DNA of 64,000 nucleotides from Membranipora membranacea (Eukaryota > Bryozoa > Gymnolaemata > Cheilostomatida > Membraniporidae), in assembly GCA_914767715.1 (NCBI GenBank), contig OU612072.1:18478001-18542000 (forward strand). The letters run 5' to 3'. Positions within the stretch are counted from its first letter, which is position 1. Each line of letters starts with the position of its first letter. Under the pieces are notes generated by a model. It saw nothing but the letters and a program-made list of their open reading frames with translations. It had not been told where the DNA came from and made no database searches. The position numbers were made by a program, and so were the translations under genes. Positions 29,696-57,308 of the stretch are shown in pieces.

Positions 29696-29699
29696 ACAT

Positions 29700-32800: not shown

Positions 32801-32801
32801 G

Positions 32802-32810: not shown

Positions 32811-32831
32811 TTAAGAATTAGTAGATTCGAA

Positions 32832-33551: not shown

Positions 33552-33671
33552 ATGAAGGTACTCTACGGCCTCACTGCCCTGCTGATGTTGGCTGGAATGA
33601 GCTCTGCATGGTTTGGCAATGGCTGTGGCTTATGTCCCATTGGTGTACAATGTATCGATGGGCAGTGTTAA
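33552..33671 (+). CDS. secreted cysteine-rich peptide, gene A
   Basis: The frame encodes 39 residues and starts four codon positions' width (3 bases) after the TTTTTACAG acceptor. Residues 1-19 form a classical signal peptide: MK, a hydrophobic core (LTALLMLAG), then MSSA with the likely cleavage before W20. The 20-residue remainder has four cysteines at 25, 28, 34 and 39 (C-x2-C-x5-C-x4-C) and ends at the last Cys. The core is CG-x-CPIGV-x-CI-x-G-x-C. No dibasic site or propeptide is visible. AATAAA lies at 33814-33819. Compared with mirror gene B, the signal peptide differs at one residue and the mature part at six. It could be a defence, toxin-like or signalling peptide. I recognise no family. 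The gene model is well supported; the function is not. Confidence 0.85.
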   Translation: MKVLYGLTALLMLAGMSSAWFGNGCGLCPIGVQCIDGQC

Positions 33672-33813
33672 ACCTTCCGATCAACAACAACTGATTTCAA
33701 TGACTTCCCGACTACGCTTCTCCTTTATCATTCAAGCAACATAATAACATGTTATATTGTCTCTTGTTTTAATGGATTCAATTATACATGTCATGTAGCT
33801 ATGAATCTTACAA

Positions 33814-33819
33814 AATAAA
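33814..33819 (+). terminator. polyadenylation signal, gene A
   Basis: AATAAA about 145 bases after the stop codon, conserved in the mirror gene (56305-56310). Confidence 0.7.
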
Positions 33820-33919
33820 GTATAACAATAAGCTATTTTTCCTGGAATTAATCGAATTCTACCCAAGACACAAAATGATATACAGAAAGATATTATCTTT
33901 TATTCACTCTAAACACAGT

Positions 33920-34224
33920 CAGGTTTCCCATTCTTTAATTGTCGCCGTGACATAATTATTCACGCATCTCAACACAGCAAGTGTCGTCATATTAATCACA
34001 GGAAATCTCTGACTGTAGGAATCGTAATAATATACAATCACATTCAAACTCCCGTCCATCTTTATCTCTCTCTTCATACCGTGTGAGAAACCTTGATGTT
34101 GCTCCGTTTTTTTTTATTGGGGTATCAATACGCCTCTTCCTGATGCCACTGTGATTCACAGGGAGTCGAACATTGGAGCTCTTGAATGAAAAGCCATGCT
34201 CTACCCATTGCACCACAGTCCACA
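33920..34224 (-). mobile_element. tRNA-derived SINE, left arm
   Basis: Read on the minus strand from 34224, GTGGTGCAATGGGTAGAGC gives an A box region and GTTCGACTCCCTG a B box. A non-tRNA body follows, ending near AATAATTATGTCACGGCGAC. This is a different SINE family from the one at 13476. The mirror copy is at 55906-56185. It lies immediately downstream of the peptide gene in both arms. Confidence 0.7.
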
Positions 34225-34422
34225 ATTGCCCTAATGATAACTTTCATATTGCTTTGCCAATTTAACATTAGTCTGTATGGTGTCACATTGGCAAAACAAA
34301 AATCCTAATGTTAATTGCCATGCTACAACCTCAACGAATTGAATCGTTATCGGAAACAATTAATTTGAGAAAAGTATATTTTTATTGAAAGACAGTAATC
34401 AAATGAGATCGTATCTAGATAA

Positions 34423-34520
34423 GTCAGTGTCACATAATGAGAATCATCATACCGAGCTCGTAAGCACAGTCTCAGTAGCGGAGAGTTAATGTGGTGACTC
34501 TATAACCCGGAATCCCACAA
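34423..34520 (-). repeat. dispersed 100 bp repeat, copy 2
   Basis: Reverse complement of 8199-8297. It ends in CCCACA followed by ACTGGTGCTCGCCGAGTG, which resembles an LTR end plus primer-binding site. It lies 26 bases inside the point where left-right symmetry breaks, so an LTR element may have caused the break. Confidence 0.7.
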
Positions 34521-35288
34521 CTGGTGCTCGCCGAGTGATGAGAGAACTCACGACCATCAGACTATTGTTTTTGATTAATCAACTCCTTACTTTATCTAGC
34601 TCTTTACTTTGTTGAAATCGTAAGTAGACATATGTCTCCGTCAGAATATCGAGCAAATCTAGAAGTACAGAAGTGTTGATAACTATTACCAGTATTCAGT
34701 GACAGTATTCATTGATTCACTTCCTGTTTTGGAGACAAGTGTGATTAAAAATAAATCCAAGCAAAGATGCCAATCATTTATGGATTAGCATTTGTATGCT
34801 GGTGTCAAGTTCTCCATGGTATACAAAATCTGTACACCATTGTACTGATAATTAAACCATGATTTATTGGCTTTATAACTCACACTATGTTATTTTCTAT
34901 AGTGCAGGTTCACAACCAGCCGGATTATTTATTGCATAAAAATGGTCTTCCTCTTATCACAAGAAAACCACAGTAAGTCATGGGTCCATCTCATTTTAAT
35001 TAGGGGTAAGAGTTGCAGTTCAAGGGTGTACCTAGGAAATTATCAATTCAAATTCACATGTGAGTAGGAGGAAAGTTAGTAGACTGTGAGGCTATCAAAA
35101 GATTTTAAATGTTGAAATTATTGGATAAAAATTCTTTATGTTATTATTAGGAATTCTCATAATCATTTAAGGACCTGAGGCTGTTGAGCTGAGGAGTTGG
35201 GACTGCCTGCTCGTCGTCGGTGATGCCTAGTTTTGAGATATCGACCGAGACAGACAGCCCCGCCTACCAGAAAACTTCAGACCAAGGC

Positions 35289-35605
35289 CAAAGATTATGA
35301 GAGAATATTATTAGAAGAAATTATGAGAGAATATTATTAGAAGAAATTATGAGAGAAATTATCAGAGATATAATGAGGAGAAATAATAAGAAAAATTATT
35401 GAGAGAAAATATGAGAAAAAATTATTGGAAGAAATTATGAGAGAAAATTATAAGAAGAAATTATGAGAGAATATTATTAGAAGAAATTATGAGAGAAATT
35501 ATCATAGATATAATGAGGAGAAATTATGAGAAAAATTATTGAGAGAAATTATGAGACAAAATTATTGGAAGAAATTATGCGAGAAAATTATGTGAAGAAA
35601 ATGAG
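35289..35605. repeat. GAGAAATTAT minisatellite
   Basis: Imperfect repeats of about 26 bases built from GAGAGAATATTATTAGAAGA and AATTATGA-type blocks. The top strand is almost free of C for over 300 bases. Confidence 0.85.
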
Positions 35606-35918
35606 AAGATTTAGGGCCTGGATCCAGTGCTGGTGAGTACTCTTTTGGAATGAATCAATGAATGTGGAGGCAGTCATCCATTGTCTATTAAAAGTGCACA
35701 AATTGATATTCAGCTTGATGGTTACCGAAACCTTTATATCTGTTCCATCAGAGGAGTCATCACCCGTGAAATTTATGTGTTAAATGTTGTGTTTAGAAAA
35801 ATTATAATGTTGAGTTAATGTTGAGCTATTTTGTTGTTAATGATTTTGAGGAGTATTTTAGTCTGAAAGCTTTCCTTGTTTGAGAAAATCTGATAATTGG
35901 CCTGTTATTAACAGAAGA

Positions 35919-36580
35919 CTTAAAGACTTTGTTTGAGGCTGCTTTTTTGTATCACATCTTATTCTCCATATTTTATTCCATCATGTGAGCGATTTTCAGC
36001 TTTAGAATCCAAATATTGAGGAAGTTATGGCCTCTCAAACTTCCAGGGTGATTGCCTTCAATCGGCATTGGGAATAAGCGGATGTTTCCCCTGGGGTACG
36101 TCACAACCATAGACATGTGTTTTGTCCATGGTCATACTTATTATGAGTTATTAGTTAATACACTAATAATCACACATATAAGATGATGATCAAAATTCAG
36201 ATCTGGGTGGGAATCGAACCCGGGTCCCCATACGTATAGGCCACTTGGACCAGCTGGTTTAGCAAGTAAACAATATAGCTCAGTGTTAGCGGCGTTGCCT
36301 GCAAAGCCATTTGGACCTGGGTTCGAGACCGTTACAGATCTGAACATTTTGATCATCAACATATTTATTAGTGTATCGTAATAAGTATGATGGTTGTGAC
36401 GTACCCTAGGGATTGCCGGCTGATTCTTACTGCCGATAAATTGCCGTCACCTTGGAAGTTTGAGAGGCCATAAGTTCCTCAATATTTGGATTCTAAAGCT
36501 GAAAATTGCTCACATGATAGAATAAAATATGGACAATAAGATCTGATACAAAAGAGAAGCCTCAAACAAAGTCTTTAAAG
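35919..36580. mobile_element. foldback MITE with two opposed tRNA-like cores
   Basis: CTTAAAGACTTTGTTTGAGGCT starts the left arm at 35919, and its complement ends at 36580. The arms remain complementary for at least 130 bases, and further blocks match inward (TACGTCACAACCATAGACAT and ATGGTTGTGACGTACC). The centre has two tRNA-like sequences facing each other: B box complement GGAATCGAACC at 36210-36220 on the minus strand, and TAGCTCAGTGTTAGC with GGTTCGAGACC (36276-36330) on the plus strand. Same family as 31013-31545. Confidence 0.75.
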
Positions 36581-38269
36581 ATGTTTGTGTGCCTAGGAGA
36601 CAAGCTTTTAAAACATTTGCGTTCATGTGGCAGAAATAGGTAAGTATGATTAATGTCGTGAAAATAATGCTTGAAAATAAATGCGAGCTAAGCCTAGTCT
36701 ATTTGTTTAACAGTGTCTGAGCCAGAAATTGTATTTGTGGTAGCATGGTCTCAAGGGTAAAGAATCTGATAGATAAGTCGTGTATACAATGTGATCCCAA
36801 TGGTATTTAGTATTAGATCTTATGAGAATAATTTATTGGGGAAAGGTGATTAATCTGAAGGTTAACTATAGGTAAGGTTGGTAGCAGTGAGTAAACGTTG
36901 ATGAACATTTAACTGTGTGGACAAAATTTCAAATTTCATGGAAAGTCCAACCTAAATTACTGTATTTTCAGTAGCTGACATGAAGAAATTCAAGTGCAAG
37001 TTGCACTAAAAATAAGATGGGCTCTGCCTATTAATGAATTAAGGCATTGTCCCCTTGGCACATCATAGACAATTGAGTCAGTCATGAGATTTTGGGTACC
37101 AACATAAATTGGAGTTTGCAAACTAGATAGGAGTGTTGTAGGAATTAGAAATCGCCTACATCAAACATCAGAGTGGGTCTACACGGAAAATTAGATCCAA
37201 AATTAAGACTTAGCTTAAATATAGTTAAAATCTCAACTTGGTGGGACCACCACCAAAAGAGATAACTGGTAAAAGAAAGTTTGGTGACTTACCGGCAATT
37301 GGTAATCAGTAAGAGGTAGCATCTAAATGTCAAGGCTTCATTTGTTGCCTATAGAGTTCTCACTGCTTGTTCATATCCGAGGGCCTCAGGATCTCATGAC
37401 TACAAATAAAAAAGATTTCAACATTTTCAAGGGCTCGAGTTGGTACATCCTCGAGCTACAGATTTAGAGACGGTTTCAGACTTTCTGTGCATATTATAAA
37501 CTAATTAATTAAGTAAGGTATATATTCAAAAGGAAGTCAATTGGTTGTCTACAACATCCCTGAGAAATGATATCTGCTTGTTGATAGCCTGTGGGTCCAC
37601 AGGACAATATATTATGTATACTTTTTGGTTAAACAGAACTTGGTTTTACTATTTTATTCACTTTGACATGTAAGTTAGTCTGAGGATTGAAGCCCTTGTC
37701 ATGTTGTGACTACCACCACGATCATGGATAGCAAAAAAGGACTCACAAAAGAAAGGTATTTTAAATTGAACAACTCTACTAAAACATGAGACAACTCAAA
37801 ATTCCCCATTTTTCTTTGATAATTATTTATTGAGACTAGAGCTGAAGCTGTGGGCAAGTTATGGAATCCCAGTCTTGGTGAAGGTTTAGGCACAGGATTA
37901 GTGATGATCCCCAGAATGGTTGAATTTTTACCTATGCGGTCCGAGACCTCACCTTGTTGATCAGGTTGTAAAGACTAAGACAAGAAACTATCCATTACCA
38001 CCAGGCAGAGATAATTTGTTAAATTAAGGAAGGGTTTCACCGCCTATAATTGTCATTTGTGGTCTATTGTATGTAGAGGACAGCAGTGTTAATAATAGGA
38101 TAAGAACAATTGAAATGATCATTATTAACAACATTGGGTTTCTGTAGTTGTAGTATCGAGGCATTAACGGACCACTCACCGGGATGCAGGATGTTTGACG
38201 GCCTAAAACAAAATTGGTTTATAGTGATTTGAATGAATAGTACTGAAATGTGGGTGCCTCACCATGCCT

Positions 38270-39563
38270 AATCACCCTCATACTGGGAAATATAGTATGA
38301 TGGATAGGGTTTCCCATTCACTTGATGACTGGGCCTAGGTCACAAGCGACTATGGTATAACATAGTGCATTATAAAAGCGAGCCTATCCAACTCAATCAG
38401 GGGATAAGGAAAATGGGAGGGGACACCTGCTTTGGTTGGTTATTGAATCCAATTGATACTTTAAAGGGCAACCAAGGTTTCGCAGCAATGCATTAATGGG
38501 TAGCAAATAATGCGCTGGGCAGCATCAGCTTTGTGCATTACGCGATGCAAAACTCAAAGTAGTTGCTGACTCTAAGCTGGGTAACACTTCAGTTTAGGGG
38601 AGGTTCCAAGACTTTGGTGTAATGATTATAGAGCACAGGCTAAATAATAACAGGAACAGGAAACTGCTATGTGGTATTCTCTTTTAGCTGAGTTTGAGTT
38701 CCTGATGGAAGAAATGCTTCACAAGAATTCTGGCTGAATAATCATCCGAATTATATTTTGTCTTTTTCCCCATGCAGAAGGTGCAATCTGCTATTAATCA
38801 ATGAGAAGTTGGTTGAAACCCTGGTTGCCCTTTAATAACAATTCACATGATTAACATCATGCAGCAATCACAATAATACTTGATTTTGTGAAGGTCAGAT
38901 TAACATGTATTGCTATCATGGGGGTGGTCCTATCTGCTTCTCTACTGTAGGTACAATGTCACCATAGGAAGGTTACTAACCATCAGACTGTCCTCCAGCA
39001 TCTTAACAACATGACTCATGATTTGAATGCTGGCAACAATTTTAGTACTAACTATAACTAACTATATTCACCACTATTTATATGCCCTGCTAGTACCCTT
39101 GCTGTACCTCTTTGGGCTGATGTAGAATGTAATATCTTTAAACTTACTCACTATGGTTGGGGAGGCTCAATCAGAATATCCAACTTCAAAATCAGTGTCT
39201 AGACTGGGAACATCTAGGCCTACTGCTTGTCAGTATCAGCTCCAAAGAACAAGAGTTTGCAGTCTTGCCATTGTGTTGGCCCACACCCACTTCCTGTTTA
39301 ACTCTTAGAGATTCCATTTTTTTTATTGGTTCATTTGAATTGAGAGTTGTCTTGTGTTTAAATAAGAGGACACAATATGTGAATTTTTGAAAGGTGGTGA
39401 GTAAATTTTATATTGTACTACAAGGAGTCTTACTCCTTGGTGTGTGTACCTACAAATAAATGAATAAATTGAATACAGTTTTAATATTATGAAGTGAGAA
39501 AAGGTAATTTATCAGTGAGAGAAACAGAACTTGGTGAGATCATTGAAAAAAAACTGACCTGAC
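38270..39563 (+). repeat. inner inverted repeat, left copy
   Basis: It matches 54427-55325 in reverse complement, for example AGGAAGGTTACTAACCATCA and ACAAGGAGTCTTACTCCTTG. The pair is arranged around nearly the same axis as the outer arms, so it is probably a continuation of the same duplication. A 39157-39390 frame is matched by 54645-54863, but differences are not silent-biased and I regard it as non-coding. The left copy carries a 367 bp MITE that the right copy lacks. Confidence 0.88.
38465..38831 (+). mobile_element. TTAA-type MITE, copy 1
   Basis: It begins AGGGCAACCAAGGTTTCGC at 38465 and ends with CTGGTTGCCCT at 38831, flanked by TTAA on both sides (38461-38464 and 38832-38835). The mirror site in the right inner repeat has a single TTAA at 55126-55129 and no insert. 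A second copy lies at 47840-48216 in reverse orientation. TTAA duplication fits piggyBac or Kolobok superfamilies. AGGG ends favour Kolobok slightly, but without a transposase I do not choose. Confidence 0.88.
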
Positions 39564-42429
39564 TGACCTGATTTTTTTCACTTTGGAGAATGAGTAGGCT
39601 ATGGGTACAGCAGATCTTCTCAGCTCTTTTCATTTTATTCATTGTCCCCTCCCCATAGACCACTGAATAAGTAGTAGGCAGCCAATGCATGTTTGGGTAG
39701 AATAGATGGATACTGTTTCACTCGCTGGCTAGATAGACTAAAGCAGGTGACATTTTCAGAGGTCGGATAATGGTATTTGGGTACCCAGGCATAGTTGAGC
39801 TGCAAATTTTATCAATTGACTATAATTACAATAGTTACTAAACAAGCAAAGTGAAACATCTCCCAAAAAAAATCATCTGCTGGTTGCTTTGCCGGTCTTG
39901 ACAAGCTTGGTTGGAGGATTTCCCCCCTCCTATCAGCAATGCCTGTCAAATCATAATCACCAATTTGCATCAAATGAGAAGACAACTCGGCATTTTTATT
40001 GAGTTGCGACATTTGCGACGTCAGTGGTTCCGAGCTAATGTGACTTTTAAGAAATTGCGACGTTTGTGTGTTTGCGACGTTTTAAAAACCCTTCGTTGCG
40101 ACGTATTTGGGATTGCGACGTTAGTGGAATGCTAGATTGCGACAGTTTGACGTTTGCGACATTTGTGGGTTCAACAAGGGCTGTATCCATGGGTTATGAG
40201 TCAGGGTCAGGCGGGTGGGTGCAAGAGGGGTGTATTAGCGCCTTCCCGCCAGAGGGGTAAGGAGGACCTCCCCCAGGAAAATATGAAAAGTCAGAGGCCT
40301 TTTTTAAGAAGACGATTTTACAAGAAATTGGCCGCAGGGATCTGAGAGTTACAGGGAGGGATACCATCTTATCCCTACTGTGATCGATACTTGGAACTGA
40401 AAAAGAATCGGTGGATATTCATTATATAGTGTGGAACCATTGTTGAACATGCATTGTTCAGAGGTTGTTTGTCCAACTTTGGCCCGAGGTATGTTTTAGG
40501 GCCTCAAGAATATTTGCTCACTACCTCCGCCAAGTGTGTATCCCATAGTCCTTGTTAGGCTTTTCAAATTTATTTACGGGATTGACCTGGACTGATTAAC
40601 GGAGTACGACTTATAGGTTCCTTCAACTCCAAGCTTGATAGGCTGGAGTTTGTAACTTGGTAACTAAACAGAGCTAGCAACTTTATTGCCCATGGTTTAG
40701 CTTGAGTGTATCCGTCTGACGTTGATATCTAACCGGTTTACTTTCCTACATAAGGTTATAATTGGAATTGACCAAAGGCAAGCAAAATTATATCAAAGAA
40801 TCTGTGGCAGCTCATCCATCTGCTTGTGTTCACCGATAGAATGGAATCTTTACTGTGCATACCTAATTTTGTCTTGATTTCAGTGATTTGAGTTGATGAA
40901 AGTATAGCTTTATCGCACAATTTTGTATGAATCGGCTTTTGAGACATAACACATCCTAAATACACCGTTGAGAATTATCTATTACGAAGAGAGGACGAAA
41001 TATAAATAATGATAATATATAGTAAAATACAGGTTAATTGTGTCTTAATAATGAGTTAGAATTATATGATAACGTTCAGGATGTCTCGAGCTTGGATTTC
41101 TGTTAATGTAGAGCTTTTTAAAAACAGCTACACACTTAGTTTTGCAACAATAACACACAATACCATCAGCATTGTATAGCGTTACGTCAATTCACTCCAT
41201 TCATGAAGGGGCATACTCAGATTGAATTCATTATAATTTCCAACTGATCAAAGATATCTGGATAATTTTTTCAATGATTATTCTCTAGATATCCATACAA
41301 ATTTCTGCTGCTTCATTTTATCTGACCATAGATCATTGCAAACAAAACTTTAAAGATGACAAATACAAAAAATAAAATGTCATGACGTTGCGCTATTAGC
41401 AGCACATCAACATTCTTGGTAAGTTGTTTTTAATTTTTATGAAAAGCTTATGGTATCAGGAAACTATATCCAGAGTGTTAGCTCTAGATATTGAGAACTT
41501 TTATCTCAAGTTAAAGATATGTTCTGAAAGGTTGATTATGGAAAAAGTTGTCCCCCCCTGATTAACATGAGTGAAATTCCATGAAACCCCCCTTGTGATT
41601 CCTGTTCTGAGGGTGGAATACAAAAATATTACACTTATACTAAATAATGTATGAAACTCAGCTATTACACTTTCAACATGGATTTTGACCCCGGGATCCC
41701 CAACTATTAGCTTAGATACTGTGATCAGTCTAGTTGTGATGATCACATTAGCAGTATGCTGATGTAATCCAGAACTTTATTGTTTAACTCGACTGTACAT
41801 CAGCTCTTTGAGCCTTTTCTATCCTGTTTAAAGGTAGTTATATTATTTTCTTGCTGCATATTTTCATAATATTATTTTCCATAAACGCAGCGACTTGTTT
41901 TGGATAAACTACTGCTACTTTAAAGGATCATTAATTCATGGAATATTTCTCTTTTGCTATCAATGCGTTACATCGTTAATCGTTTGAGATGCTCAACACT
42001 GCTGCCGTTATATTTGCCACGCTACTTGAGCTACATTATCTCCATGCCTGTATCTCTGCTGCTGCAAATATCGCTGAATGTTTCCGTACAACTTTCAGGC
42101 ATCACTAGAGAATGGCATATTCTACAAGGCTCCATGGCTAAACTAGACTCACTGTAGTATTAATGTGTTATTATCAGCCCAGGCGATGATCGCGCAACAA
42201 GGTACATTTTCTTGCAGTACCTCAACTCCATGAACATTAAGTTTGATGAATACCATGAATTATCCATATCGCATTGTTACGTATTTGAATTGATCACAAT
42301 ATTTTTGACTTTTAGTGCACCGCACCGATATTTTTTTATTATTGTAAAACGTAATGTTGTAGTTTCTACGATTCGGTCTAAGGAAAACAAAGATCAGTAG
42401 AACTCAACCCCTCACACTTGATGGCTGAT
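39564..42429. other. unique central DNA, no gene recognised
   Basis: Contains a cluster of TTGCGACG motifs (40002-40170) and a GTCTTGACAAGCTTGG motif at 39892. Open frames up to 81 codons have no recognisable content. Confidence 0.5.
40002..40170. repeat. cluster of TTGCGAC(G/A)T motifs
   Basis: Eight copies of TTGCGAC followed mostly by GT or AT lie at about 40003, 40012, 40054, 40072, 40095, 40114, 40136 and 40152, all in the same orientation and unevenly spaced (9 to 42 bases). The motif is CpG-containing and strongly over-represented against an AT-rich background. It may be a decayed short tandem repeat or a protein-binding cluster. Confidence 0.75.
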
Positions 42430-42607
42430 ACAATGATTATTATCATCATATATGTATTTATCAATATACATTATAATATGGTACTTACTTGGTACTTGAA
42501 GGTTAATCGCCAACTTCTGTGAGAATGTTGTGGCAATATGTCATCTCGTCTGTCCGTCTCCGTTCCGGGTGTGCAACGTATTGTCGGTAGATCGATCGCC
42601 ATCAACC

Positions 42608-43713
42608 TTAGCCTGCCACTGGGGGTCCCTCGAGGAGGGTGCTGCCGATCGGTAGGGCGTTCCACAGTTTAGCAGTGCTCACAAAGAAGCTGTTCTGGTG
42701 CAGTTTGGTATTGCAGTGAGGGATAAAAAACTGCGATTGGTGTTTCCTTGACTGTCCAGCATGTGTAGGATGTGGAGAGAGGTAGTCAGTGATGTTAACA
42801 GCAACCTTGTTGTAGTGCATAGCGCGGAAGATGCCGAGCCTTCTTCTCTCCCTCCGGTCTTTGAGTGTGTCCCACTCCAGGTCCTCCAGAGGTTTTGTAG
42901 TGCTGGTGGTGTGATCAGTTCTTCTGACATTGGACACCATCCGGGCTGCTCTTCTTTGGACTGCTTCAATGGAGTTTATCTGAGTATTGGTCAGAGCTCC
43001 ATCCCACACCGTGCTCGAGTACTCAATGACGGGTCGTACCAGATATTTGTATGCCCGACTTCTCAAGTCCGGGAGCGACGGGGGGATAGTTCTGCTGACA
43101 TAGCCAAGTCTACCCGATGCTTTACTGGTGATAAACGTACTGTTTTCATTCCATCTCAGTGTGTTTTCCAACTTGATTCCTAGGTATTTCACTCCGGTAG
43201 CTTTTGGCATGTCAATGTTGTGCAGGGTGAAGGTATTGTTCACACCTCGCTCTCGTTTTCGGCTGAACTTGATATGCTCGCATTTGAGAGCATTGAATTT
43301 CATTTTCAATTCTTTCTCCCAAGTATCTAGTGTGTGGAGGTCTTCTTGGAGTTTATCTCGATTGTCAGCAGTATTATAGATGACAGTGTCATCCGCAAAT
43401 AGTCTGGCATTGGACCTGACAGAGTCAGGGAGGTCATTGATGAAGATGGTGAAGAGTAGGGGCCCAATGACTGAGCCTTGGGGAACTCCTGATGTTACTT
43501 TACAGGGAGTGGAAGGAAAGCCATCCACAACCACGACTTGGATTCTCTTTGAAAGGAAGTCCTCAATCCATCTGGTGGCTTGATTATTGACTCCGATGTT
43601 TTTAGCTTGTGGACAAGTTGGACATGGTCAACCTTGTCGAAAGCTTTCGCGAAGTCAAAGAAGCAAGCATCAACTTCTTTCCCTTGGTCCATGAGTGCCG
43701 AGATATCTGCCAA
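42608..43713 (-). pseudogene. LINE reverse transcriptase, C-terminal part
   Basis: Two overlapping minus-strand frames (43713-43495 and 43534-42608) cover the RT palm and thumb. The first holds DACFFDFAKAFDKVDHVQLV, with the first catalytic Asp. The second holds SGVPQGSVIGPLLFTIFINDL and ARLFADDTVIYN, the FADD box, at about residues 16-50. The thumb follows with LKYLGIKLENTLRW-type strands, then EYSSTVWDGAL and an IEAVQRRAARM helix, which is the usual CR1/L2/Jockey ending. The join near 43520 is a frameshift. No RNase H follows. Confidence 0.9.
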
Positions 43714-43740
43714 AAGCTCTACGAGCTGCGACTCACAACA

Positions 43741-44640
43741 TCATTTCGGTCGAAATCCATGTTGTTTTGGTGTGAGTTTCTCTGTAGTCTCCAGGTGGTG
43801 TGCTACTTGGCTAGTGATGATATGCTCAAGTAGTTTGCTCGCGACACAGGTGAGGCTAATGGGTCGGTAGTTAGAAGGCTGGTATTTATCTCCTTTTTTG
43901 AAGACTGGACAGACTCGTGCTTTCCTGCAGTCAGATGGTACCGTCGAGGTGTCCAGGGGTCTCTGAAAGAGATGGGTCAAAGGTCCTGCTAATACTGGTG
44001 CCAACTGCTTTAATAGTCTAGGGCTGAGGTCATCAGGTCCTGTGGCCTTGTAGGGATTGAGTTTCTTCAGTAAAGCTAGGACTCCATTTTCAGAGATTTT
44101 TATCTTTGACATGTCATTGGAGCCAGCGGTGTTTACAGGCTCTGATGGGGAGACAGGGTTGAAGACAGAGTGAAACTGTTTATTTAGTGCCTCTGCCTTT
44201 TCTGTAGGGTCTGTAATTAGTTTCGAGTTGACTCGCAATGTGCCAACTCCAGAGTTGTCTGATCTTTTCTGTTTGACGTAAGCCCAGAATTTCTTGTTTG
44301 TCTTGCTGCTATCATTTTCTTCTTCTGTCAAGATGTTTTCCACGAACTTGTTGTGTTCCTTGCGAAACTCCCTCTGAACTTCTTTTCTGACATCATTGTA
44401 TCTCTTCTCCAGTTGTTGTCCTCCATTTTTCCTCGTTCTTCTATGCAGTCGTTTTTTGAGTTTGATCTTCTGCTCCAGGATAGGGCTGACCCACGGTTTT
44501 CGATTGTATTTCTTTGTTGTCTTGGTAGGGATAAATTTCTTAGCTCCCTCATGGATGGTGTTCTTGAGGTGCGTCCACATCTTTTCAACTGGTTGTCGGC
44601 TAGTTGTGAGCTTTTGTGGTGTTGGTGTAACATGTTTCAA
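43741..44640 (-). pseudogene. LINE RT N-terminal part
   Basis: A 299-codon frame with a basic linker (KPWVSPILEQKIKLKKRLHR), the AYVKQKRSDNSG block, then RT motifs: LNPYKATGPDDLSPRLLKQL (motif 0/1), ARVCPVFKKGDKYQPSNYRP (motif 1/2) and KLTPKQHGFRPK. After FRPK a stop interrupts; the continuation ELLADISALMDQGKEVDA lies in another frame. Confidence 0.9.
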
Positions 44641-45505
44641 TAGTCCATCCCAACCAACGCCAGATGGTCCTTGGGGCCTGTTTTCTCCTGTTTGCCCGGA
44701 GTGACAGTTCTGTGTAGCAGATGTGGTGATCGCTGATGCCGGGTAAGATTTTGGTTCTCTTGACTCGTTCTGGTATATTCGTCATGATTATATCCAGTGT
44801 GCTGTTGATCCTTGTGGGTTCTTTACCAAGCTGTGTCAGACCTGCAGTGTCTAGTAGTTCTTTGAATTCCTGATGGTTTGATTGTTGAGGGCAATTTGGT
44901 TTGAGTTGCATGGCAGGCCAGTCCCAGCCTGGTAGGTTGAAGTCACCTGCAATGATGTTTTTATGGTTGTCTGCTAAAATATTATCAACAGGGTTTCGTA
45001 ACTGAGGGATGGTTGGTTTGTCTGCTACATTGGGTCTATAGCAAGCTCCTATGTAGAGATGTTGTTGTCCAGTCAGAATAGCCTTGACCCAGATGAATTC
45101 TGCGCCTTGGCTTTTCTCGTCAACCTCTGTAGAGCTGATGGTGTTGTTGACAGCAATGAGAACTCCACCACCACCTCCAGCTGGGCGGTCTCTTCTAAAC
45201 ACGCTGTAGTCACCGAGTTCAAGCTCAGCTGTGTAGATCTCTGGTTTCAGCCATGTCCCTGTCGCTATTATGATGTCTGGTTCTGAGCACTCTATCATGT
45301 TTTTCCAGGCTCCGAGTTTGGAAAGTAGCGACTGGCAATTTACATTGATGAGTCTCAGTGGTTTGTCTTTTTGTCTGGTTTTTCGCTCCAATTTGGGAGA
45401 TGACTCATGTTTAGGCATAGCATTATCATCTAGAGAATCTATACTGATCTGAGAGTCACTCGACAAATCTTCATTAGTGGTACTGTATTTGTTTATGTTT
45501 GTCAC
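44600..45505 (-). pseudogene. LINE AP-endonuclease domain
   Basis: The 301-codon frame carries the APE-type nuclease: LRLINVNCQSLLSKLG (catalytic Asn), the position normally held by the SET/W glutamate block (IIIATGTWLKPEI), RDRPAGGGGGVLIAV, IGACYRPN, IIAGDFNLPGWDW (Asp/Asn pair) and ILPGISDHHICYTEL (the terminal SDH). In IIIATGTWL the usual Glu of E-T-W is Gly, so the nuclease may already be impaired. The frame is lost in the last 15 codons near 44640 and resumes in the RT frame. Confidence 0.9.
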
Positions 45506-45529
45506 TGAGCAATTGAAGGCAATATGGCT

Positions 45530-45735
45530 GTAGTTGATGGAATTACAGTTCAGACATGCCCAGGCAACGCTACTGTTGTCAAGTCTTGAGTATTCATTTG
45601 AGTTGATGTTTTGGCATGAAATGTGGAACCATGTTGAGCAGTTTTCTCATAGTATACCTTTATCTTCCCATGTGACAGGATGGTGACAAGCTCCACAGAG
45701 ATAGAGGCTGCTGATTTCAATGGGCTCCTCCTGGT
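45530..45735 (-). pseudogene. LINE N-terminal PHD finger remnant
   Basis: Upstream of the endonuclease, LYLCGACHHPVTWEDK gives the first C-x2-C pair. ENCSTWFHISCQNIN gives the middle Cys, His and Cys residues. VAWACLNCNS gives the last C-x2-C pair. The middle part is out of frame because of one-base indels near 45660 and 45600, and the codon before ENC is TGA where a Cys is expected. With these indels the frame is open but the finger is scrambled. PHD fingers in such LINEs are thought to bind modified histones. Confidence 0.72.
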
Positions 45736-45790
45736 TCACAGTGTCATCATGCTGCTTTCCAGTTGTCAGGTTGTCCAGTTGCATTTTTTT

Positions 45791-46070: not shown

Positions 46071-46074
46071 ACAG

Positions 46075-47604: not shown

Positions 47605-47839
47605 CCATATTATATTATATTGTATTCATGTATCGCATTGTATAAAACCTTGCAATAAATTTTATTGTGCATTGCTCTTCAAATCTCATTGAATCTCCTC
47701 GAATCTCACTCATAATATCGCCACCTAACATATTTCACAAATGTTGGCTATTTATAAAAATACCTTACCACTTCAGGCACTTCACATGTCAATCCATTGT
47801 TTGTTATTTTCTTGCCCCCCAGTACTTTAGTTTGCTTAA

Positions 47840-48216
47840 AGTGCAACCAAGGTTTCAAACAACTTCTCATTGATGGCCGTTGATTAATAGCAGATTGCAC
47901 CTTCTGCATGGGGAAAAAGACAAAATATAATTCGGATGATTATTCAGCCAGAATTCTTGTGAAACATTTCTTCCATCAGGCACTCAAACTCAGCTAAAAT
48001 AGAAAACCACAGAGCAGTTTCCTGTTCCTGTTATTATTTAGCCTGTGCTCTATCATCATTACAGCAATGTCTTGGAACCTCCCCTAAACTGAAGTGTTAC
48101 CCTGCTTAGAGTCAGCAACTACTTTGAGTTTTGCATCGCGTAATGCACAAAGCTGATGCTGCCCAGCACATTATTTGCTACCCATTAATGCATTGCTGCG
48201 AAACCTTGGTTGCCCT
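47840..48216 (-). mobile_element. TTAA-type MITE, copy 2
   Basis: Same family as 38465-38831, in reverse orientation. It begins AGTGCAACCAAGGTTTC and ends GAAACCTTGGTTGCCCT, with TTAA at 47836-47839 and 48217-48220. The shared interior includes TAGAGTCAGCAACTACTTTG and CATTAATGCATTGCTGCGAA. Confidence 0.88.
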
Positions 48217-48220
48217 TTAA

Positions 48221-50930
48221 GTTTGGGGGGCGAAGCTGCTGTTTTAGATACAACCTATATCATCAGAAGACCAAACGTTAACACGGATTAGTCTGTTTTA
48301 ATGCAGACAAGGTCGGGGCTTCATTGCCTATCGGGCCGCCAGGATAGTTTTCTGCCATTATACCTGCCACGGCGTCAGCCAAGGCGTGGTTACTATAATG
48401 TTAACTCTCCACTAATACAACTACTACTGCTACAGTCACCCTCTACAGACAATCTTTATCTTAACCCAACTTCACTAGAATCTCATACAACATGCATAAT
48501 TTCTTCATGACCTGTTGTTTCATATAAACATTTTTATTTGTAAAATCATAAATACCTCAACTTATTTCGCCATCCAAATATGTAAAGCAAAATGACCGAT
48601 GTGCATTCAGTTTTTACAGAAATTCAACATATTCATAATATGTATATCCAACGGCAAGAAACCAAATGTGGCAACCCATAACACTACAGGCACTAAGGGT
48701 TTCATTCCCATCAGGACGGTAGGGCACCCCTATGAATAGTCACGTGGCGAGGAGCTAAGTACATTGACATCCAATTGTCATTATAATGCAGCCTGCCATC
48801 CATTTACATTTAGTCCTGTGAATATAAATACAATAATTAAAATACAAAGCCGTATACTATCAAAATAGACCATATTTAATATATTTCAATATTAATATCA
48901 ATATTAGGCTACACCAGTCATTAAGCTAAAATTTCTTTATTTTCGCTACCGCATTCATATTTTATTGTTATTAATAATATGCCTGCAAACAGAGGCTTTT
49001 CCTGTTCTAAAATAAATTTGTACACGAAAATAAAAGATTACTAACTAACTAACTTGTTCCCTCATGATCACATGAACTATGCATACTGAGTTCTCATTGG
49101 CTGACAACTCAACACCAACGAAATCCCTACAATATTGTCTACGCAGAGCATCCTTTGACTGACAACTCAGCACCAACAAAATCCCTTCAATATTGTCTAC
49201 GCAGAGCATCCTTTGACTGACAACATGCTACCAGACAGCACACCAGTTGTAACGGTGATAATTTTTAAATCGGCATATTAGCCAGTAGTAGAAGCCATTA
49301 CCAGCATCAGCGCCTATAGAGGCATCATCTTCAAACAAGGATCATTCCACATCTGAGTAGCTATGACCGCTACATGTGACTTGGACATTCTAAAACGTTG
49401 GCAAAGGATGGCAAATCTGTCTGATCCGAGAAATCTCAGAGGGGTGTACGCTGCAGAAACTTTCCTGCCCATAAACCGCAAAATTTGATGATGGTTTTAA
49501 TGCCCTTCTATCTCATATTACACTCCCACCTGAGGCTAATTTTTATACTAATCTGAGACCTGGTGCTGAGGCAGATCAAGATGAAAATGACATGGAATAA
49601 TGTGTTTTGTTTACTGTTGACTGTTACCATCCCCGAGCCTTAACCAATGCTGATATTATTATTTTAGCGATTTATTTCTATCTAATTGTTTTAGCGTATA
49701 AAAAAATCTTATCTAGTTGATAATGAGGTATTTTTATATCTTATAACATAATACAATAAACACATTCATATAATTATAAACCAAATTAGTTTCTTCTTAT
49801 CTCTAAAAGACTCTATGTGTATGAACTTTCACCTTAACATATAAGAATTTTCATATTCAATTGATTGATTAAGTACAGAGTTTACATTTGCTGAGAGCTC
49901 AGTCACAAGGGAGAAAACTCTGGTCCCAGCATAAAATATCAAGTATCAATCCTACTAATACAGCAGCAAACCAGAGAACTGGATTGCATCGCAGGGAAAT
50001 TAAAATATTAAGAGATAACATTGGCACGCTGAATACAAATTATGACAATATTCTGCTGGTGATAAAATATGAAGTCAGCATTGATGTATGACTAAAGCAT
50101 CAGCACCAGCGCCACAATCTCCACATGATGAGAGACTAAACAAGTTTCACAATGATTCGGAATCAGCACAGCGTTCAGCATCCCACTTCACCATAATTAT
50201 TATGTCAGGTTGATGATTCTTTATGTGATTCATCCTATGATGATTTCGATAGTTGTTCCTTCATAACAATTGCATTTCAAAGATCCAAACAGTATTTTTA
50301 ACAATTTGTTGACCGTGAGCCCACCAACCTAGGTGTTTCATAAAACATGTTTTCTTTTCTCTGTAAAAACGAGTTATTTTGCATATGTGCCGGACCAGAG
50401 AGAACTAGGAGAATTATTATAGAGCTTAGGTGTATCGCCTTCAGGTTGAGGGATGTGATTGCCAGTAAAGTTTTATATTGATACAAGTTAGTTAAGGAGA
50501 AAGATATAGGTAGGACACAAAAAGAAATTGAAATCAGTTGTACAATCAGTCAATGAATGAGATGCCATCCTAAATTTTGACGTTAGACTTTTGGAAAACT
50601 GTGGACATATTCTTTGTCTTTTCTTCAATATAAAGTTTTAGTGTGTTGACAGTTATGAATGTGTTGGTGGGCTCACCAATATCCTCTCTGTTAATTGCTT
50701 TAAAGATGAAAGGACCTAAGGAATCTTCTGAATGTTTATCATCAATATTTGGCAACATACTGGTGAGCTTGGGTTGTGTAGATCGATAGTTTTGAAAATT
50801 GTTGCAATAATAAAAATTATACGCAGAAGGCTCTTAATGATAATGGGATTGCTGCGCCTGTTTCTGATGAAATTAATATTTGTACACCTGAATTATATGG
50901 CATATCGCTATGCATGCTGAAGATTTAAGG
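48221..50930. other. no gene recognised; short tandem duplication
   Basis: Contains a 58-base tandem repeat (49101-49224). At 49480-49602 a frame reads FDDGFNALLSHITLPPEANF, then NLRPGAEADQDENDME and a stop. It looks protein-like but lacks upstream support. Other frames are short and unrecognised. Confidence 0.4.
49101..49224. repeat. 58 bp tandem duplication
   Basis: CTGACAACTCA starts at 49101 and 49159, and CTGACAAC at 49217. The units share TATTGTCTACGCAGAGCATC. Confidence 0.85.
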
Positions 50931-51151
50931 TTACGATGAGGTGTTTTCTTCTATTACAGAATTGCCGACCAGCGATAGCAGCAAAATATGGTTTCGAGTT
51001 GTCCCTCTACCTGTGCCCTACTATTACTCAGTTTTATTGAGGTGAAACCTGCTGAGCCCATCGTCACTTTGATCCAAAGGTGGGTAATGTGAGCATTTTC
51101 TAAGTGGCAGTTTTATATATGGATGAAAGACGGTTCAACTTCAGATCTCTT

Positions 51152-51574
51152 TTTCATTAAATATCTATTGCTGGCTGTAAAAGCCCTGGAGAGATGAAGC
51201 TCAGTTCTTAATTTATTATTTCATTTAATGGTGAGTTTATCTAAAGGAAATCTGAGGAAATTGAATGGAGAGTTTGATGAGATTTCATGATTGCATCGGT
51301 TTTTTTATTAAAACTGGACCTGGAAGTTTAAAATGCTCTGTAGATGGATCTTTTTTGTAAACTCATTAGCACTTTTCAGAAGCAGTAAACTGTTTGTACA
51401 TGAGTTCAAGGCAGCATATCGCTCTTCTAATTAAATATCTATTGCTGGTTGTAAAAGCCATGTAAAGATAAAGCTCACTTCTCAATGTAGTATTTGATTT
51501 AATGGTGAGTTTATCTATAACTGAGGAAGTTGATTGAAGATTTTAATGAGATTTCATGATTGCATCGGTTTACC
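51152..51574 (+). repeat. direct duplication of about 150 bp
   Basis: 51156-51305 and 51430-51574 are diverged direct copies: TTAAATATCTATTGCTGG, TTTAATGGTGAGTTTATCTA and GAGATTTCATGATTGCATCG appear in both in the same order. The period is about 275 bases. Confidence 0.8.
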
Positions 51575-53119
51575 AATAAAAGCTTTCTCCGTCTGAACAC
51601 TTCAAATGCTCTGAAGCTGTTTTCAGATGCAGTAAATTGTTTTGCACATAAGAGCTGAACTCTAATGGCTAAAATGTTGATTTGCTGATAACAATAGCAG
51701 CCTTCTCCCTAGCTCCCTTTGCTAGGACGAAAAACTCATCGTGGTGGACTGTAGCAGACCCTGGAAATTTATTCTCTGTTCGTTTTGAATTACATAAATT
51801 AAATCATAAGATACAACTATCAAACGAAGCTCTATTTGTTTGTCATGTAATGCCCTGCCCATCACTCTACACGTCATAACATTGTTTTTGACATGTGAAG
51901 ATCTCTTGCAATACCTTTCACAGAATCATGTTATACTATTCATTTTATCCCTGACATAAATGCGATTCGTTTGCCACAAGAGAAATGCCTATATGAAGCT
52001 CTGGTCGTTTTTATCATCTTCATTGGCTTCTTTTAACTTGATGGTGAGGCCAAATGGATGATAATATTATGTCTTTTAAAAAGAAAATACTCAATGCACG
52101 GATGCATAAATTAAATTAAACGATGACTTTATGATTGTGTTGCTTGTATTTGAATGATGTATGTCTCAACCTAAGAAACTCAATAATGCCCAAACAGATT
52201 CCTTGGCGATGATACTGTTTGTGCATCATCATTCAAATGTTATCAGGCCCTTTCTTGTGATTCGATAACTGCTTAGTGTGTCATATTCCTAAATTTCATA
52301 TTTAAAGGTCCTCGAGCATGGTTAACCAAAGAGGACAACTGAATAGCACTATGGTGTGTGAAAGAGTCTTCAGCTACGTAAAGCTTAATTGCATTTGAAC
52401 AAATAGGGGCGCCTTGGTAGCTTCTCAAATACACCAACATCAAGCTTCAACCTAAAAAAATGTCACAGTGAAGGAAGGGTAATGATGATTCGCCCACAGT
52501 AGGGAAATGAATGTCCCTAAAGATTTTATGACATATGCCAACTGATTTTCTTTTGGCTTACAACTGAGCATAGGTCCTGTGACGCTATTGGGTATAATAT
52601 ATATATATATAAATGTCCGCATTCTCACTTCAAACACACCGACACATTTTAGTTGATAAATCAATCAAATTGTATCTGATTTAAACCAGCAAATATTACC
52701 CTAATGTCACATGACTTATTGCCAGTTGTCAGCCAATGGGGCCAACTAAGGCATGTTTTTGAGACTGCAGCTAGACAAGGGTGCGTTTGAAAAGCTGCCA
52801 AGGGGCCTCTATCTGTTGGGTGTAGGTTTCTTTCATGATGAAACTTGTGTCTGAGTGGTGAAATTGATGGAATATCGTAACAGCTTGCTGTTTAATGAAG
52901 CACCATCCTTCCGCATTTAAATTAACCTTTTTACTTAGTTTCACCGAAAGAGAAGATAGTTGGCATTTTAATACGTTCAAGGTATTGTGTAGTAGATGGG
53001 GGTGGTTCAGAAGCCAAATCCAAGCCAATATTGGTGAAAACTTGTTGAGCTGAGATGTCACTGCTTGTTGATTTTTGATAACACAGTTATCAACTTTTAA
53101 CTTATATTTGAGGGTCATC
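51575..53119. other. no gene recognised
   Basis: Contains a TA run at about 52600-52612. The minus-strand frame 52771-53118 (115 codons) has no recognised content but follows the LINE fragment and may be its degenerate continuation. Confidence 0.4.
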
Positions 53120-53177
53120 AGTTTTATTTCTATTAAGAATATTCTTAATGAAATTCTATTTCTGGATTTGGTTATCT

Positions 53178-54199
53178 TTACACGTTAAAAATTACTGTTT
53201 TTGCATTTGAAATTTGTGCAGAGACGTAATTGCTATCACTACGGTATTTAAGTTGAAGCTTTTCATTAGGTTTCGCTTGGCTAAGCCGGTGTAATTGTCT
53301 GCGCTTTTCTGTCAAGTTGTACAGATCCTTTGTCATCCAGGCTTGTTTAAAAGTCGAGGATTTCCTTTTATTACTACAGACATTTGAAGTGACACTTGAC
53401 ATCTCACTTTGTTTTTGAAAATGTGATAAAAAGTTTTCAAAAGCTATATTGACATTTTTTTTGTAGGTCACTCCAATCTATTGTGCAAGATTTGTAATGA
53501 CAACTGGCATTGTTCACCAGAATGTGGTCTAAAAGGCTGTTTTTGGTGTCTCCATATAGAGTTAGTGGTTCAATTACATTTAAAAAAACCAAATTTTCTC
53601 AGAGTGTCACAGTATTCCAAAGACGATTTTTCAATTATATTTTTGGTGTTCAAATCAATATTTATGTCACCCTCAACAATGTAGTGAGCAGGGAGAGAAC
53701 ACAAGCACTCACCCAAGTTGCCCAGGAACCCAGAAACCGCGCCTGAAGGGGGGCGGTCAGCAGAAAGAAGAGTACACACATCCCGCCCGGCCCTGCTAGC
53801 GCGTATGATAAGTAATTCTGGGCCCTCCAGCTGTACTGTCTCCACTCTAGCTGCAAACTCTACATTCACATAAACTGCTGTGTCACCACCGCCACCTTGT
53901 GGTCTAGAACTGAAAAATATATTAAACTTGTCAAGTCGATATCATCCTAATAAGGTGGCATTATCAAACAAAGTTTCTGAGATTATAATAAAAGAACAAT
54001 TACAATTGAGTTCGCTTAGTAAAAGCCCAAGCTGTCTCATTTTAAACTCCAAACTCCTAGCATCGAGATGTAGAATTGAGAGATCATTCTTTGATACTAT
54101 GACACATGAGACTTTATTTGGCACAAATTTGGCAGAATGAGTAGTAAACCAGTCTTCACCAAGTTCTGTTTCTCTCACCGATAAATTACCTTTTCTCAC
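53178..54199 (-). pseudogene. second LINE: endonuclease fragment
   Basis: Three minus-strand frames in sequence (54199-53942, 53869-53570, 53471-53178). The first reads LSILHLDARSLEFKMRQLGL and CSFIIISETLFDNATLLG, matching the N-terminal strand and the SET glutamate motif of LINE endonucleases. The second has GGGGDTAVYVNVEFAAR upstream in the gap and HYIVEGDINIDLNTKN (the D-x-N pair). The third, TFKQAWMTKDLYNLTEKRRQLHRLS, resembles the basic linker before the RT. No RT follows. It is a different family from the LINE at 42.4-45.8 kb. Confidence 0.72.
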
Positions 54200-54345
54200 T
54201 TCATGTCATTATAACTGTATTCAATTTAATAATTTATTTGTAGATATACACACCAAGGAGTAAGACTCCTTGTAATACAATATAAAATTTACTCACCACC
54301 TTTCGAAAATTCACATATTGTGTCCTCTTATTTAAACACAAGACA
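54160..54345 (-). repeat. partial direct duplicate of the inner repeat end
   Basis: The sequence from CCAAGTTCTGTTTCTCTCAC through CTCCTTGTAATACAATATAA to ACACAAGACAACTCTC occurs at 54160-54345 and again at 54455-54650. The first copy overlaps the start of the LINE fragment's frame. Confidence 0.8.
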
Positions 54346-54426
54346 ACTCTCTGAAATTATATTTGTGTCACCAAGTGCAATTCACAGCAAAAGATGACAT
54401 CAGAAAAGGCACATGGGTTACAATGC

Positions 54427-55325
54427 AGAGGTCAGTTTTTTTTCAATGATTTCACCAAGTTCTGTTTCTCTCACTGATGAATTACCTTTCTCACTTCATG
54501 TAATTATAACTGTATTCAATTTAATAATTTATTTGTAGATATACACACCAAGGAGTAAGACTCCTTGTAATACAATATAAAATTTACTCTCCACCTTTCG
54601 AAAATTCACATATTGTGTCCTCTTATTTAAACACAAGACAACTCTCAATTCAAATGAACCCATAAAAATATGGAATCTCTAAAAGTTAAACAGGAAGTGG
54701 GTGTTTGCCAACACAACGGCAAGACTGCAAACTCTTTTTCTTTGGAGCTGAAACTGACAAGCAGTAGGCCTAGATGTTCCCTGTCTAGACACTGATTTTG
54801 AAGTTGGATATTCTGATTGAGCCTCCCCACCCATAATGAGTAAGTTAGGTACAGGTACAGCAAGTACTAGCAGGGCATATAAATAGTGGTGAACATAGTT
54901 AGTTACAGTTAGTACCAAAATTGTTGCCAGCATTCAAATCATGAGTCATGTTTGTTAAGATGCTGGAGGACAGTCTGATGGTTAGTAACCTTCCTATGGT
55001 GACATTGTACCTACAGTAGAGAAGCAGATAGGACCACCCCCATGATAGCAATACATGTTAATCTGACCTTCACAAAATCAAGTATTATTGTAATTGCTGC
55101 ATGATGTTAATCATGTGAATTGTTATTAAAGTATCGATTGGATTCAATAACCAACCAAGGCAGGTGTCCCTCCCACTTTCCTTATCCCCTGATTGAGTTG
55201 GATAGGCTCACTTTTATAATGCACTATGTTATACCATAGTCGCTTGTGACTTAGGCCCAGTCATCTAGTGAATGGGAAACCTTATCCATCATACTAGATT
55301 TCCCTGTATGAGGGTGATTAGGTAT
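54427..55325 (-). repeat. inner inverted repeat, right copy
   Basis: Reverse complement of 38270-39563, without the TTAA MITE. The empty TTAA is at 55126-55129. Confidence 0.88.
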
Positions 55326-55905
55326 TCAGATCCCATTGTTCTAGCCAGTGTTTATCTTTTAGATTGACACTGACACTCCTTGCTTGTGGGTGAGCATAAC
55401 TTCGAAAATATGAGAATTAAAAGTACATACAAGCAACATTGTTTTTTTACATCAATGCTTATACTGTTGGGTTGTCAAAATCTGACTTTTCGAGTACCTA
55501 AGTTTGAAATGTTTTGTAATTCACCAATCATGATAATGCATTTTTTTCTTTTTTATGAAATTTCTAATTAGCAAAAAAATCTTGATGAGCAATACATGCG
55601 GTGGAACTGTCTTTATGTCATTTATGATCACTTGTTTGAGCTGGAATTCTGCATTAATGTGATTGTATTTTTGGAAAGTTGTATGCCCAAATATTTGCGA
55701 GATTAGAAGCTTTTGGCTGGTTCATATATACTGTCTTTCAATAAAAATATACACTTCCCAAATTAGTTGTTTCTGATAACGATTCAATTCGTTGAGGTTG
55801 TAGCATGGCAATTAACATTAGGATTTTTGTTTTGCCCATGTGACACCATCCAGACTGACTTAATTGGCAAAGCAATATGAAAGTTATAATTAGGGCAATT
55901 GTGGA

Positions 55906-56185
55906 CTGTGGTGCAATGGGTAAAGCATGGGTCTTTCATTCAAGAGCTCATGTTCGACTCCCTGCGGATCACAGTGGCATCAGGAAGAGCCGTATTGATA
56001 CCACAATAAAAATAAAACGGAGCAATATCAAGGTTTCTCACACGGTATAAAGAGAGAGATAAAGATGGACGGGAGTTTGAATGTGATTGTATATTATTAC
56101 GATTCCTACAGTCAGAGATTTCCCGTGATTAATATGACCACACTTGCTGTGTTGAGATGCGTGAATAATTATGTCACGGCGACAA
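55906..56185 (+). mobile_element. tRNA-derived SINE, right arm
   Basis: Mirror of 33920-34224. GTGGTGCAATGGGTAAAGC (A box region) and GTTCGACTCCCTGCGG (B box), then the same body. It is slightly more diverged in the linker after the tRNA-like head (ACCACAATAAAAATAAAACG). Confidence 0.7.
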
Positions 56186-56304
56186 TTAAAGAATGGGAAA
56201 GCTGACTGTGTTCAGAGTGAATATAAGATAATATCTTTCTGTATATCATTTTGTGTCTTGGGTAGAGTTCGATTAATTCCAGGAAAAATAGCTTATTGTT
56301 ATAC

Positions 56305-56310
56305 TTTATT
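56305..56310 (-). terminator. polyadenylation signal, gene B
   Basis: TTTATT on the plus strand, that is AATAAA on the minus strand, mirrors that of gene A. Confidence 0.7.
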
Positions 56311-56447
56311 TTGTAAGATTAATAGCTACATGACATGTATAATTGAATCCATTAAAACAAGAGACAATATTACATGATATTATGTTGCTTGAATGATAAA
56401 GGAGAAGCGTAGTCGGGATGTAAATCAGTTGTTGTTGATCGGAAGGT

Positions 56448-56567
56448 TTAACACTTCCCTTCGATACATGGTACACCAATGGGACAAATTCCACAGCTAT
56501 TGAAGAACCATGCAGAGCTCATTCCAGCCAACATCAGCAGGGCAGTGATGCCGTAGAGTACCTTCAT
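56448..56567 (-). CDS. secreted cysteine-rich peptide, gene B
   Basis: Mirror gene of 33552-33671, also 39 residues, with the same signal peptide except residue 7 (Ile for Leu). The four cysteines (25, 28, 34, 39), the CPIGV core and the last-Cys ending are kept. Six mature residues differ from gene A: 22, 24, 27, 33, 36 and 38 (G to F, G to S, L to I, Q to P, D to E, Q to K). Ten of the 60 mature-coding bases differ, against one of 57 in the signal peptide. Acceptor, 665-base intron (56571-57235), donor and TATA are as in gene A. The net charge becomes more positive. The two genes point towards each other across the 21 kb centre. Confidence 0.85.
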   Translation of the reverse strand: MKVLYGITALLMLAGMSSAWFFNSCGICPIGVPCIEGKC

Positions 56568-57287: not shown

Positions 57288-57308
57288 TTCGAATCTACTA
57301 ATTCTTAA

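Follow-up and report, generated by a model that had tools for sequence, protein, structure and literature searches.

What kind of gene keeps its promoter, intron, and signal peptide nearly intact after duplication while its mature product is rewritten? The question is raised by two short genes, A and B, in a stretch of 64,000 nucleotides (nt) of chromosome 8 of Membranipora membranacea, a marine, kelp-encrusting cheilostome bryozoan (G000:C8:18478001-18542000; hereafter, the window). The assembly comprises 339,339,785 bases and, according to the available part of its genome note, rests on 66x HiFi and 173x linked reads and was curated (PMC10290214). The answer favored here, with a probability of roughly 0.55, is that A and B are members of a large superfamily of secreted mini-peptides that most likely serves as an outward-acting repertoire, a function suggested by the sequences. 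That the family and its gene plan are real is very probable.

Genes A (forward strand) and B (reverse strand) are open frames of 39 codons that converge within an inverted duplication. In gene A, a TATA box conserved in other subfamilies (TATATAAGG, 32802-32810) precedes a non-coding first exon in the 5' untranslated region (UTR) at 32830-32883, with its 5' end placed by distance from the TATA box and its 3' end by the splice donor; the surrounding DNA island, homologous in several subfamilies, ends at GGTAAGTG (32883). A 5'-UTR intron of 665 nt (32884-33548, GTAAGTG...TTTTTACAG) leads to exon 2 (33549-33830), whose 3' end is estimated from AATAAA at 33814-33819. The coding region for the 39-residue precursor, stop included, spans 33552-33671. 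Its 19 signal-peptide codons (33552-33608), with cleavage after Ala at -1 placed by conservation, are followed by those of the mature peptide WFGNGCGLCPIGVQCIDGQC (33609-33668). Gene B repeats this order, with a TATA box at 57309-57317, a non-coding exon 1 at 57236-57289 (5' end likewise estimated), a 665-nt 5'-UTR intron at 56571-57235, and a coding region including the stop at 56448-56567 that specifies the mature peptide WFFNSCGICPIGVPCIEGKC.

The TATA box, exon 1, and 665-nt intron described in the initial annotation are borne out, and a recount reproduces its tallies of A/B differences exactly, the "about 135" bases around exon 1 being 136. One difference is found in those 136 positions, which run from the TATA region to just beyond the donor, one in the last 84 nt of the intron, one in the 57 signal-codon positions, and 18 in the 631 of the bulk of the intron. 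The mature codons differ at 10 of 60 positions, altering six of 20 residues and retaining the four cysteines and the motif CPIGV, as compared with 26 of 995 positions in the flanks (Fisher p = 1.3e-5). These differences amount to about 7.5 in 48.3 nonsynonymous and 2.5 in 11.7 synonymous sites; both kinds of change are in excess, and the ratio of nonsynonymous to synonymous rates (dN/dS) is not above 1.

A third gene, C, lies about 9 kb past the window end (C8:18551221, forward strand). Its mature codons carry one silent difference and its protein is identical to that of B. The three genes sit in related duplicated segments, with A and B inverted relative to each other, and copy C rules out a strict two-gene pair. 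Assembly error, for which the initial annotation had allowed, is an unlikely origin of the differences: base errors are improbable at 66x HiFi coverage, and the inverted copies on one scaffold, together with that coverage and the curated assembly, rule out haplotypic duplication as well. An AlphaFold model of gene A, with B as its sole alignment partner, is of low confidence (mean predicted local distance difference test score 68.6, predicted template-modeling score 0.30). It predicts a signal helix at residues 3-21 and a nearly structureless mature part, and it contributes the signal helix only.

The initial annotation had proposed a search of the source genome for further copies with this signal, and they proved to be numerous. 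A genome search with A returned 29 matches at E <= 10, and a DNA pattern for the signal peptide (at most one mismatch) returned 36, most already found by sequence search, as compared with none for the reversed control. The union of searches with A, with other members, and with the signal pattern gives at least 65 family places, a lower bound, on seven of the 11 chromosomes (26 on chromosome 8, 15 on 7, 13 on 2, eight on 3, and one each on 1, 9, and 10), weak matches on C7, C2, and C8 having been excluded by judgment. Sequence was read for 48 of the 65, and 17 (10 on chromosome 2, five on 3, and two on 8) are known from the match alone. Arrays of a one-cysteine subfamily occur at G000:C2:7491991-7561582 (10 matches) and C3:30129997-30159040 (seven matches). 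They are near-identical by match score, with three and two copies read, respectively. Locus L053 carries an additional, cysteine-free member beyond the 65, with mature peptide FPYPAVVSIFGTK. L052 (C8:10442500-10444000) and L053 (C8:10727820-10729320) are convergent with L029 and L030, about 2 kb away, and were apparently duplicated together with them. In all, 53 loci (L-numbers) were fetched. The analysed set holds 45 members, which give 36 distinct precursors, and omits L041 and L047, which are without a recognized precursor, and the decayed copy L048.

Distant subfamilies have two islands of DNA in common. The first comprises the TATA box, short exon, and consensus donor, the second the acceptor together with the signal codons; the intron sequence that separates them is mostly diverged. 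A TATA box followed by a donor within about 60-147 nt is present in the 1500 nt ahead of 38 of the 45 members, as compared with 1.5 expected from dinucleotide shuffles and 0/45 in 1200 nt downstream. Estimated introns range from 255 to 1112 nt, the acceptor falls 0-4 nt ahead of the start codon, and the coding part is one exon, the sole intron found being that of the 5' UTR. The exon-1 island of A has blastn matches to its counterparts in L006 (E about 1e-26), L013 (about 1e-16), and L027 (about 1e-10), and a profile built from five such islands detects L029 and L030 at about 1e-31. Used as a genome query, the A island gave seven matches, all upstream of family members. Because that query missed the known islands of L013, L027, L029, and L030, the promoter may have other users. 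Conserved DNA in distant pairs often stops at the signal codons (from -26 to +56 in L004/L017 and as far as +56 in L001/L020); the exception is L005/L020, in which it extends to +136.

This shared plan bears on the suggestion that the copies are not genes at all, only members of a dispersed repeat, or segmental duplications in decay, in which short frames arose by chance. Some copies are indeed decayed, the duplications are interrupted and repeat-rich, and the frames are short. Even so, TATA box, donor, acceptor, and signal are kept across diverged subfamilies in which most of the intron has changed, and nonsynonymous sites of the signal differ between sister copies at 7/694.5, as compared with 238/9970 for introns, making this account highly improbable.

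Rates were pooled over 16 sister pairs, picked greedily by lowest flank divergence, three of which are near-identical and hence carry little information. L039/L040 were removed because their tails are frameshifted relative to each other, and 11 loci were unpaired (L003, L006, L013, L019, L024, L025, L027, L028, L031, L032, and L046). The boundary between signal and mature part was fixed at 19 residues, a cleavage site taken from conservation. Across all 16 pairs, mature codons differ at 55/777.5 nonsynonymous (7.1%) and 10/206.5 synonymous (4.8%) sites, signal codons at 1.0% and 5/214.5 (2.3%), respectively, introns at 2.4%, and distal 3' flanks at 171/6006 (2.8%); the mature nonsynonymous excess has p = 1.5e-10. 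It is most pronounced in eight pairs on chromosome 8, with 41.5/344 nonsynonymous (12.1%) and 5.5/88 synonymous (6.2%) sites and introns at 162/6497 (2.5%). Relative to introns plus distal 3' flanks (253/9650, about 2.6%), the nonsynonymous excess in these pairs reaches p = 2.3e-15.

Several results weigh against the favored answer. The initial annotation had read the A/B pattern as diversifying selection, a reading that this pair fails to sustain, dN/dS for A and B alone being about 0.7 once corrected by hand for multiple hits (Jukes-Cantor), with both classes of change raised. The broader claim of diversifying selection keeps its fast mature change on chromosome 8; in pooled mature codons, the excess of dN/dS over 1 falls short of significance (p = 0.10 for chromosome 8, 0.16 for all pairs), and synonymous sites are mildly raised (5.5/88 versus 253/9650, p = 0.03, on chromosome 8; p = 0.047 for all pairs). 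The separate rates proposed there for signal and mature parts do show a slow signal and a fast mature part when pooled; the excess is missing from the eight pairs off chromosome 8, whose mature nonsynonymous sites differ at 13.5/433.5 (3.1%, p = 0.34). On chromosome 8 itself, six of nine pairs show the excess and L033/L034, L037/L038, and L052/L053 do not. The last of these, added later, has 0/63 mature differences and brings the chromosome 8 total to about 41.5/393, with the site number estimated. The split between chromosome 8 and the rest was made after the data had been seen, and the comparator is slightly lowered because pairs were selected by lowest flank divergence. Conservation of the signal is in part ascertainment, since members were found through it. 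Finally, L006 is without an in-frame ATG at the usual start and L019 has ATT there, making them possible pseudogenes or users of alternative starts, and L039/L040 and a third copy in the window (described below) look decayed; some copies are therefore not functional. Pairs without a mature excess rule out universal fast evolution of the family. Where present, the hypervariability is strong, but it is confined to certain lineages; the rate data are compatible with positive selection or a raised local mutation rate alike.

The raised synonymous sites, in the A/B pair and in the pooled chromosome 8 pairs, are what would be expected if the mature excess were mutational, arising from local hypermutation, from multi-base events, or from conversion that homogenized the arms and left older mature differences in place. 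Several of the 10 A/B mature differences are also clustered (33614-33616 and 33629-33632). A mutational origin must nonetheless contend with low divergence next to the mature part, 1-1.5% in pooled signal codons and 2.4% over the initial 150 nt of the 3' UTR, and with L004/L014, which have accumulated 10 nonsynonymous and 0 synonymous mature changes. Beyond A, B, and C, the best match to A is only 66% identical; no closer donor was seen, and conversion from another extant paralogue was rejected on that ground. On these data a purely mutational explanation is unlikely.

The predicted precursors consist of a signal of about 19 residues, with Ala at -1 in 25 of the 36 distinct precursors by the 19-residue count, and a peptide of about 11-28 residues. 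No propeptide is seen between the two, the precursors being too short and the cysteines starting 1-10 residues past the inferred signal end. Compared pairwise, 15 subfamily representatives (105 pairs) have a mean identity of 56% in the signal; identity at non-cysteine mature positions is 30%, equal to that of shuffled loops (30%), with 4/105 pairs at p < 0.05. The constant signal and variable mature part noted in the initial annotation thus hold across the family. Its four-cysteine framework holds for the majority: in 34 distinct precursors (omitting L039/L040), the mature part has four cysteines in 22, two in seven, one in three, and three in two, one of the last, L034, being so counted only since its first cysteine precedes the fixed cut. 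The remaining 12 and the further cysteine-free member depart from it. In raw tallies made by eye, the 11 four-cysteine subfamilies, with L033-L036 omitted for their different framework, use TGC for the second cysteine in nine, TGT for the third in 10, and TGT for the fourth in all 11, a pattern that may point to one ancestral scaffold.

An amidation-type tail, in which Gly precedes one or two basic residues, ends 11 of the same 34 precursors and is absent from the other 23; shuffles gave a mean of 0.55 and a maximum of 4 in 2000. N-terminal Gln is found in six of the 36 distinct precursors. Internal KR or KK occurs in L021/L022, L028, L039, L040, and L025, as noted by eye. Such tails and glutamines fit processed signal peptides, and the absence of a mature excess in the eight pairs off chromosome 8 would suit them too. 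The peptides might then be internal or between-colony signals, that is, peptides with neuropeptide-like, reproductive, or self-recognition roles and receptors to match. Inspection by eye found no repeated peptide copies within precursors, and the loops are randomized between subfamilies, unlike ligands bound to conserved receptors; in its available part, the neuropeptide survey of Bugula describes other precursors (PMC4990251). A signaling role is doubtful.

Small secreted peptides with cysteines, encoded by multicopy, partly fast-evolving genes and in some members bearing amidation-type tails, might also act as immune antimicrobial peptides, short disulfide-bonded products of haemocyte-like or epidermal cells diversified by pathogens. 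The mussel myticins, as far as the available parts of their descriptions go, are such a variable antimicrobial family (PMC7356231, PMC3164099). The bryozoan peptides are not cationic as a class: by K/R minus D/E, 11 of 34 distinct mature peptides (here including L039/L040) are positive, 14 neutral, and nine negative, and five reach +2 or more. Four precursors had no Pfam family above the cut-off. A dedicated antimicrobial role is possible and, on balance, improbable.

The reading preferred here, an outward-acting repertoire, can be put as a sequence of steps. The typical gene is a cassette: behind a TATA promoter come a short untranslated first exon, a single intron in the 5' UTR, and a lone coding exon for both signal and peptide. 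After cleavage by signal peptidase, peptides with two or four cysteines would form one or two disulfides, and a subset would acquire a C-terminal amide. Common promoter and signal sequences would place the members in the same kind of secretory cell. The set expands through tandem, inverted, and segmental duplication. In many chromosome 8 members, though not in every one, the mature codons then evolve at several times the rate of introns and flanks, so that the secretion cassette persists and its product is exchanged. The outcome would be an outward-facing mix of effectors (deterrent, toxin-like, or antimicrobial) directed against changing biological opponents. Randomized loops and repeated duplication would fit changing targets such as predators, microbes, or neighbors better than a conserved internal receptor. 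The set also offers many short, synthesizable peptides and, in an animal that itself fouls kelp, a source in which defense, recognition, or antifouling activity can be tested.

The surroundings of A and B document the duplication. The arms of the inverted segmental duplication, both interrupted, run from 24477 to 39560 (left, forward strand, carrying A) and from 54155 to 63891 (right, reverse strand, carrying B); matching pieces within these tracts (about 24.5-39.6 and 54.2-63.9 kb) are about 92-98% alike and repeat-rich. A 203-nt tandem repeat of about 5.4 copies (23003-24098, 95% matches) borders the left arm, and an AT-rich minisatellite with reported periods of 26, 114, and 140 nt occupies 35294-35600. 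The decayed third member (17505-18129, forward strand) retains a promoter and exon 1 at 17505-17607, recognized at E 6.6e-32 by an exon-1 profile of L020, L023, L024, and L025, and at 18055-18129 an acceptor and signal codons (MKLLYSLTALLMLAGVA), directly followed by stops with the mature part missing. Its exon-1 island is of another subfamily than that of A and B. Member L012 sits outside the window, some 4.1-4.9 kb ahead of its first base. Elsewhere in the window are remains of a long terminal repeat (LTR)-type retrotransposon over several frames (998-4909, forward strand; reverse transcriptase, RNase H, and integrase), which include an AGAG tract at 1379-1563, and non-LTR retrotransposon frames (42608-45646, reverse strand) for an endonuclease, a sub-threshold PHD-like finger, and a reverse transcriptase. 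Among the 120 matches listed for the non-LTR reverse transcriptase frame, one is a database protein with 95% identity across 63% of the frame. The window has 0 tRNA and 0 Rfam matches.

The initial annotation had called the family undescribed, and database searches agree. Pfam gave no match above the curated cut-off for four precursors, and PDB sequences gave none for gene A. None of the 17 candidates that a 17-sequence family alignment drew from 5.8 billion proteins reached E <= 1, a weak negative in that the collection, made up of gene predictions on public genomes and metagenomes, may hold few eukaryotic genes of 40 residues; as a positive control, the window's reverse transcriptase frame gave 4020 matches at E <= 1e-10 in the same collection. 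The literature consulted, largely outside subscription papers and including available parts of the Flustra genome report (PMC13326412) and PMC4990251, yielded no such family and no diversified bryozoan peptide effector system.

A kept signal with a variable, cysteine-bearing end is best known from venom and defense peptides. In frog-skin prepropeptides of the dermaseptin type, one conserved export region carries unrelated mature peptides, much as in the bryozoan family; in frogs the precursor includes an acidic propeptide and the products are linear and cationic, whereas the bryozoan ones are without a visible propeptide and mostly contain cysteine. With myticins and other variable mollusc antimicrobial peptides, as far as these are described in the parts available (PMC7356231, PMC3164099), the family shares small secreted cysteine-rich products and variation in sequence and gene copies. 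It differs in having no Pfam relation (four precursors) and in mature peptides of about 11-28 residues that are overall not cationic. The neuropeptides of Bugula neritina likewise come from secreted precursors of a cheilostome; those described in the accessible part of that survey are conserved neuropeptide and hormone types, with nothing like the present family among them (PMC4990251).

The closest parallel is with the conotoxin superfamilies of Conus. According to the available part of one account, these combine a conserved signal with a hypervariable mature peptide, several cysteine frameworks per superfamily, and a mature exon that changes most, in genes with signal, propeptide, and mature parts and one or two introns in the precursor (PMC3862624); site-specific cysteine codons are described in a second source, also seen in part (PMC3823881). 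The bryozoan family shares the conserved signal and hypervariable mature peptide. A bolder and decidedly unlikely proposal is that it represents an independently evolved conotoxin-like engine, in which a fixed cassette of promoter, exon 1, and signal that keeps receiving new mature peptides, mutation raised in the mature codons only rather than selection alone, and retained cysteine codons would generate a venom-like or recognition repertoire. Because no propeptide is seen and the sole intron found lies in the 5' UTR, the bryozoan family, from another phylum, works like the conotoxin superfamilies yet is not one of them. A family whose young duplicates are almost identical, whose genes follow a single plan, and whose branches include fast and slow ones would offer a second, independent system outside the cone snails that could address whether mature-region hypervariability stems from selection, local mutation, or conversion.

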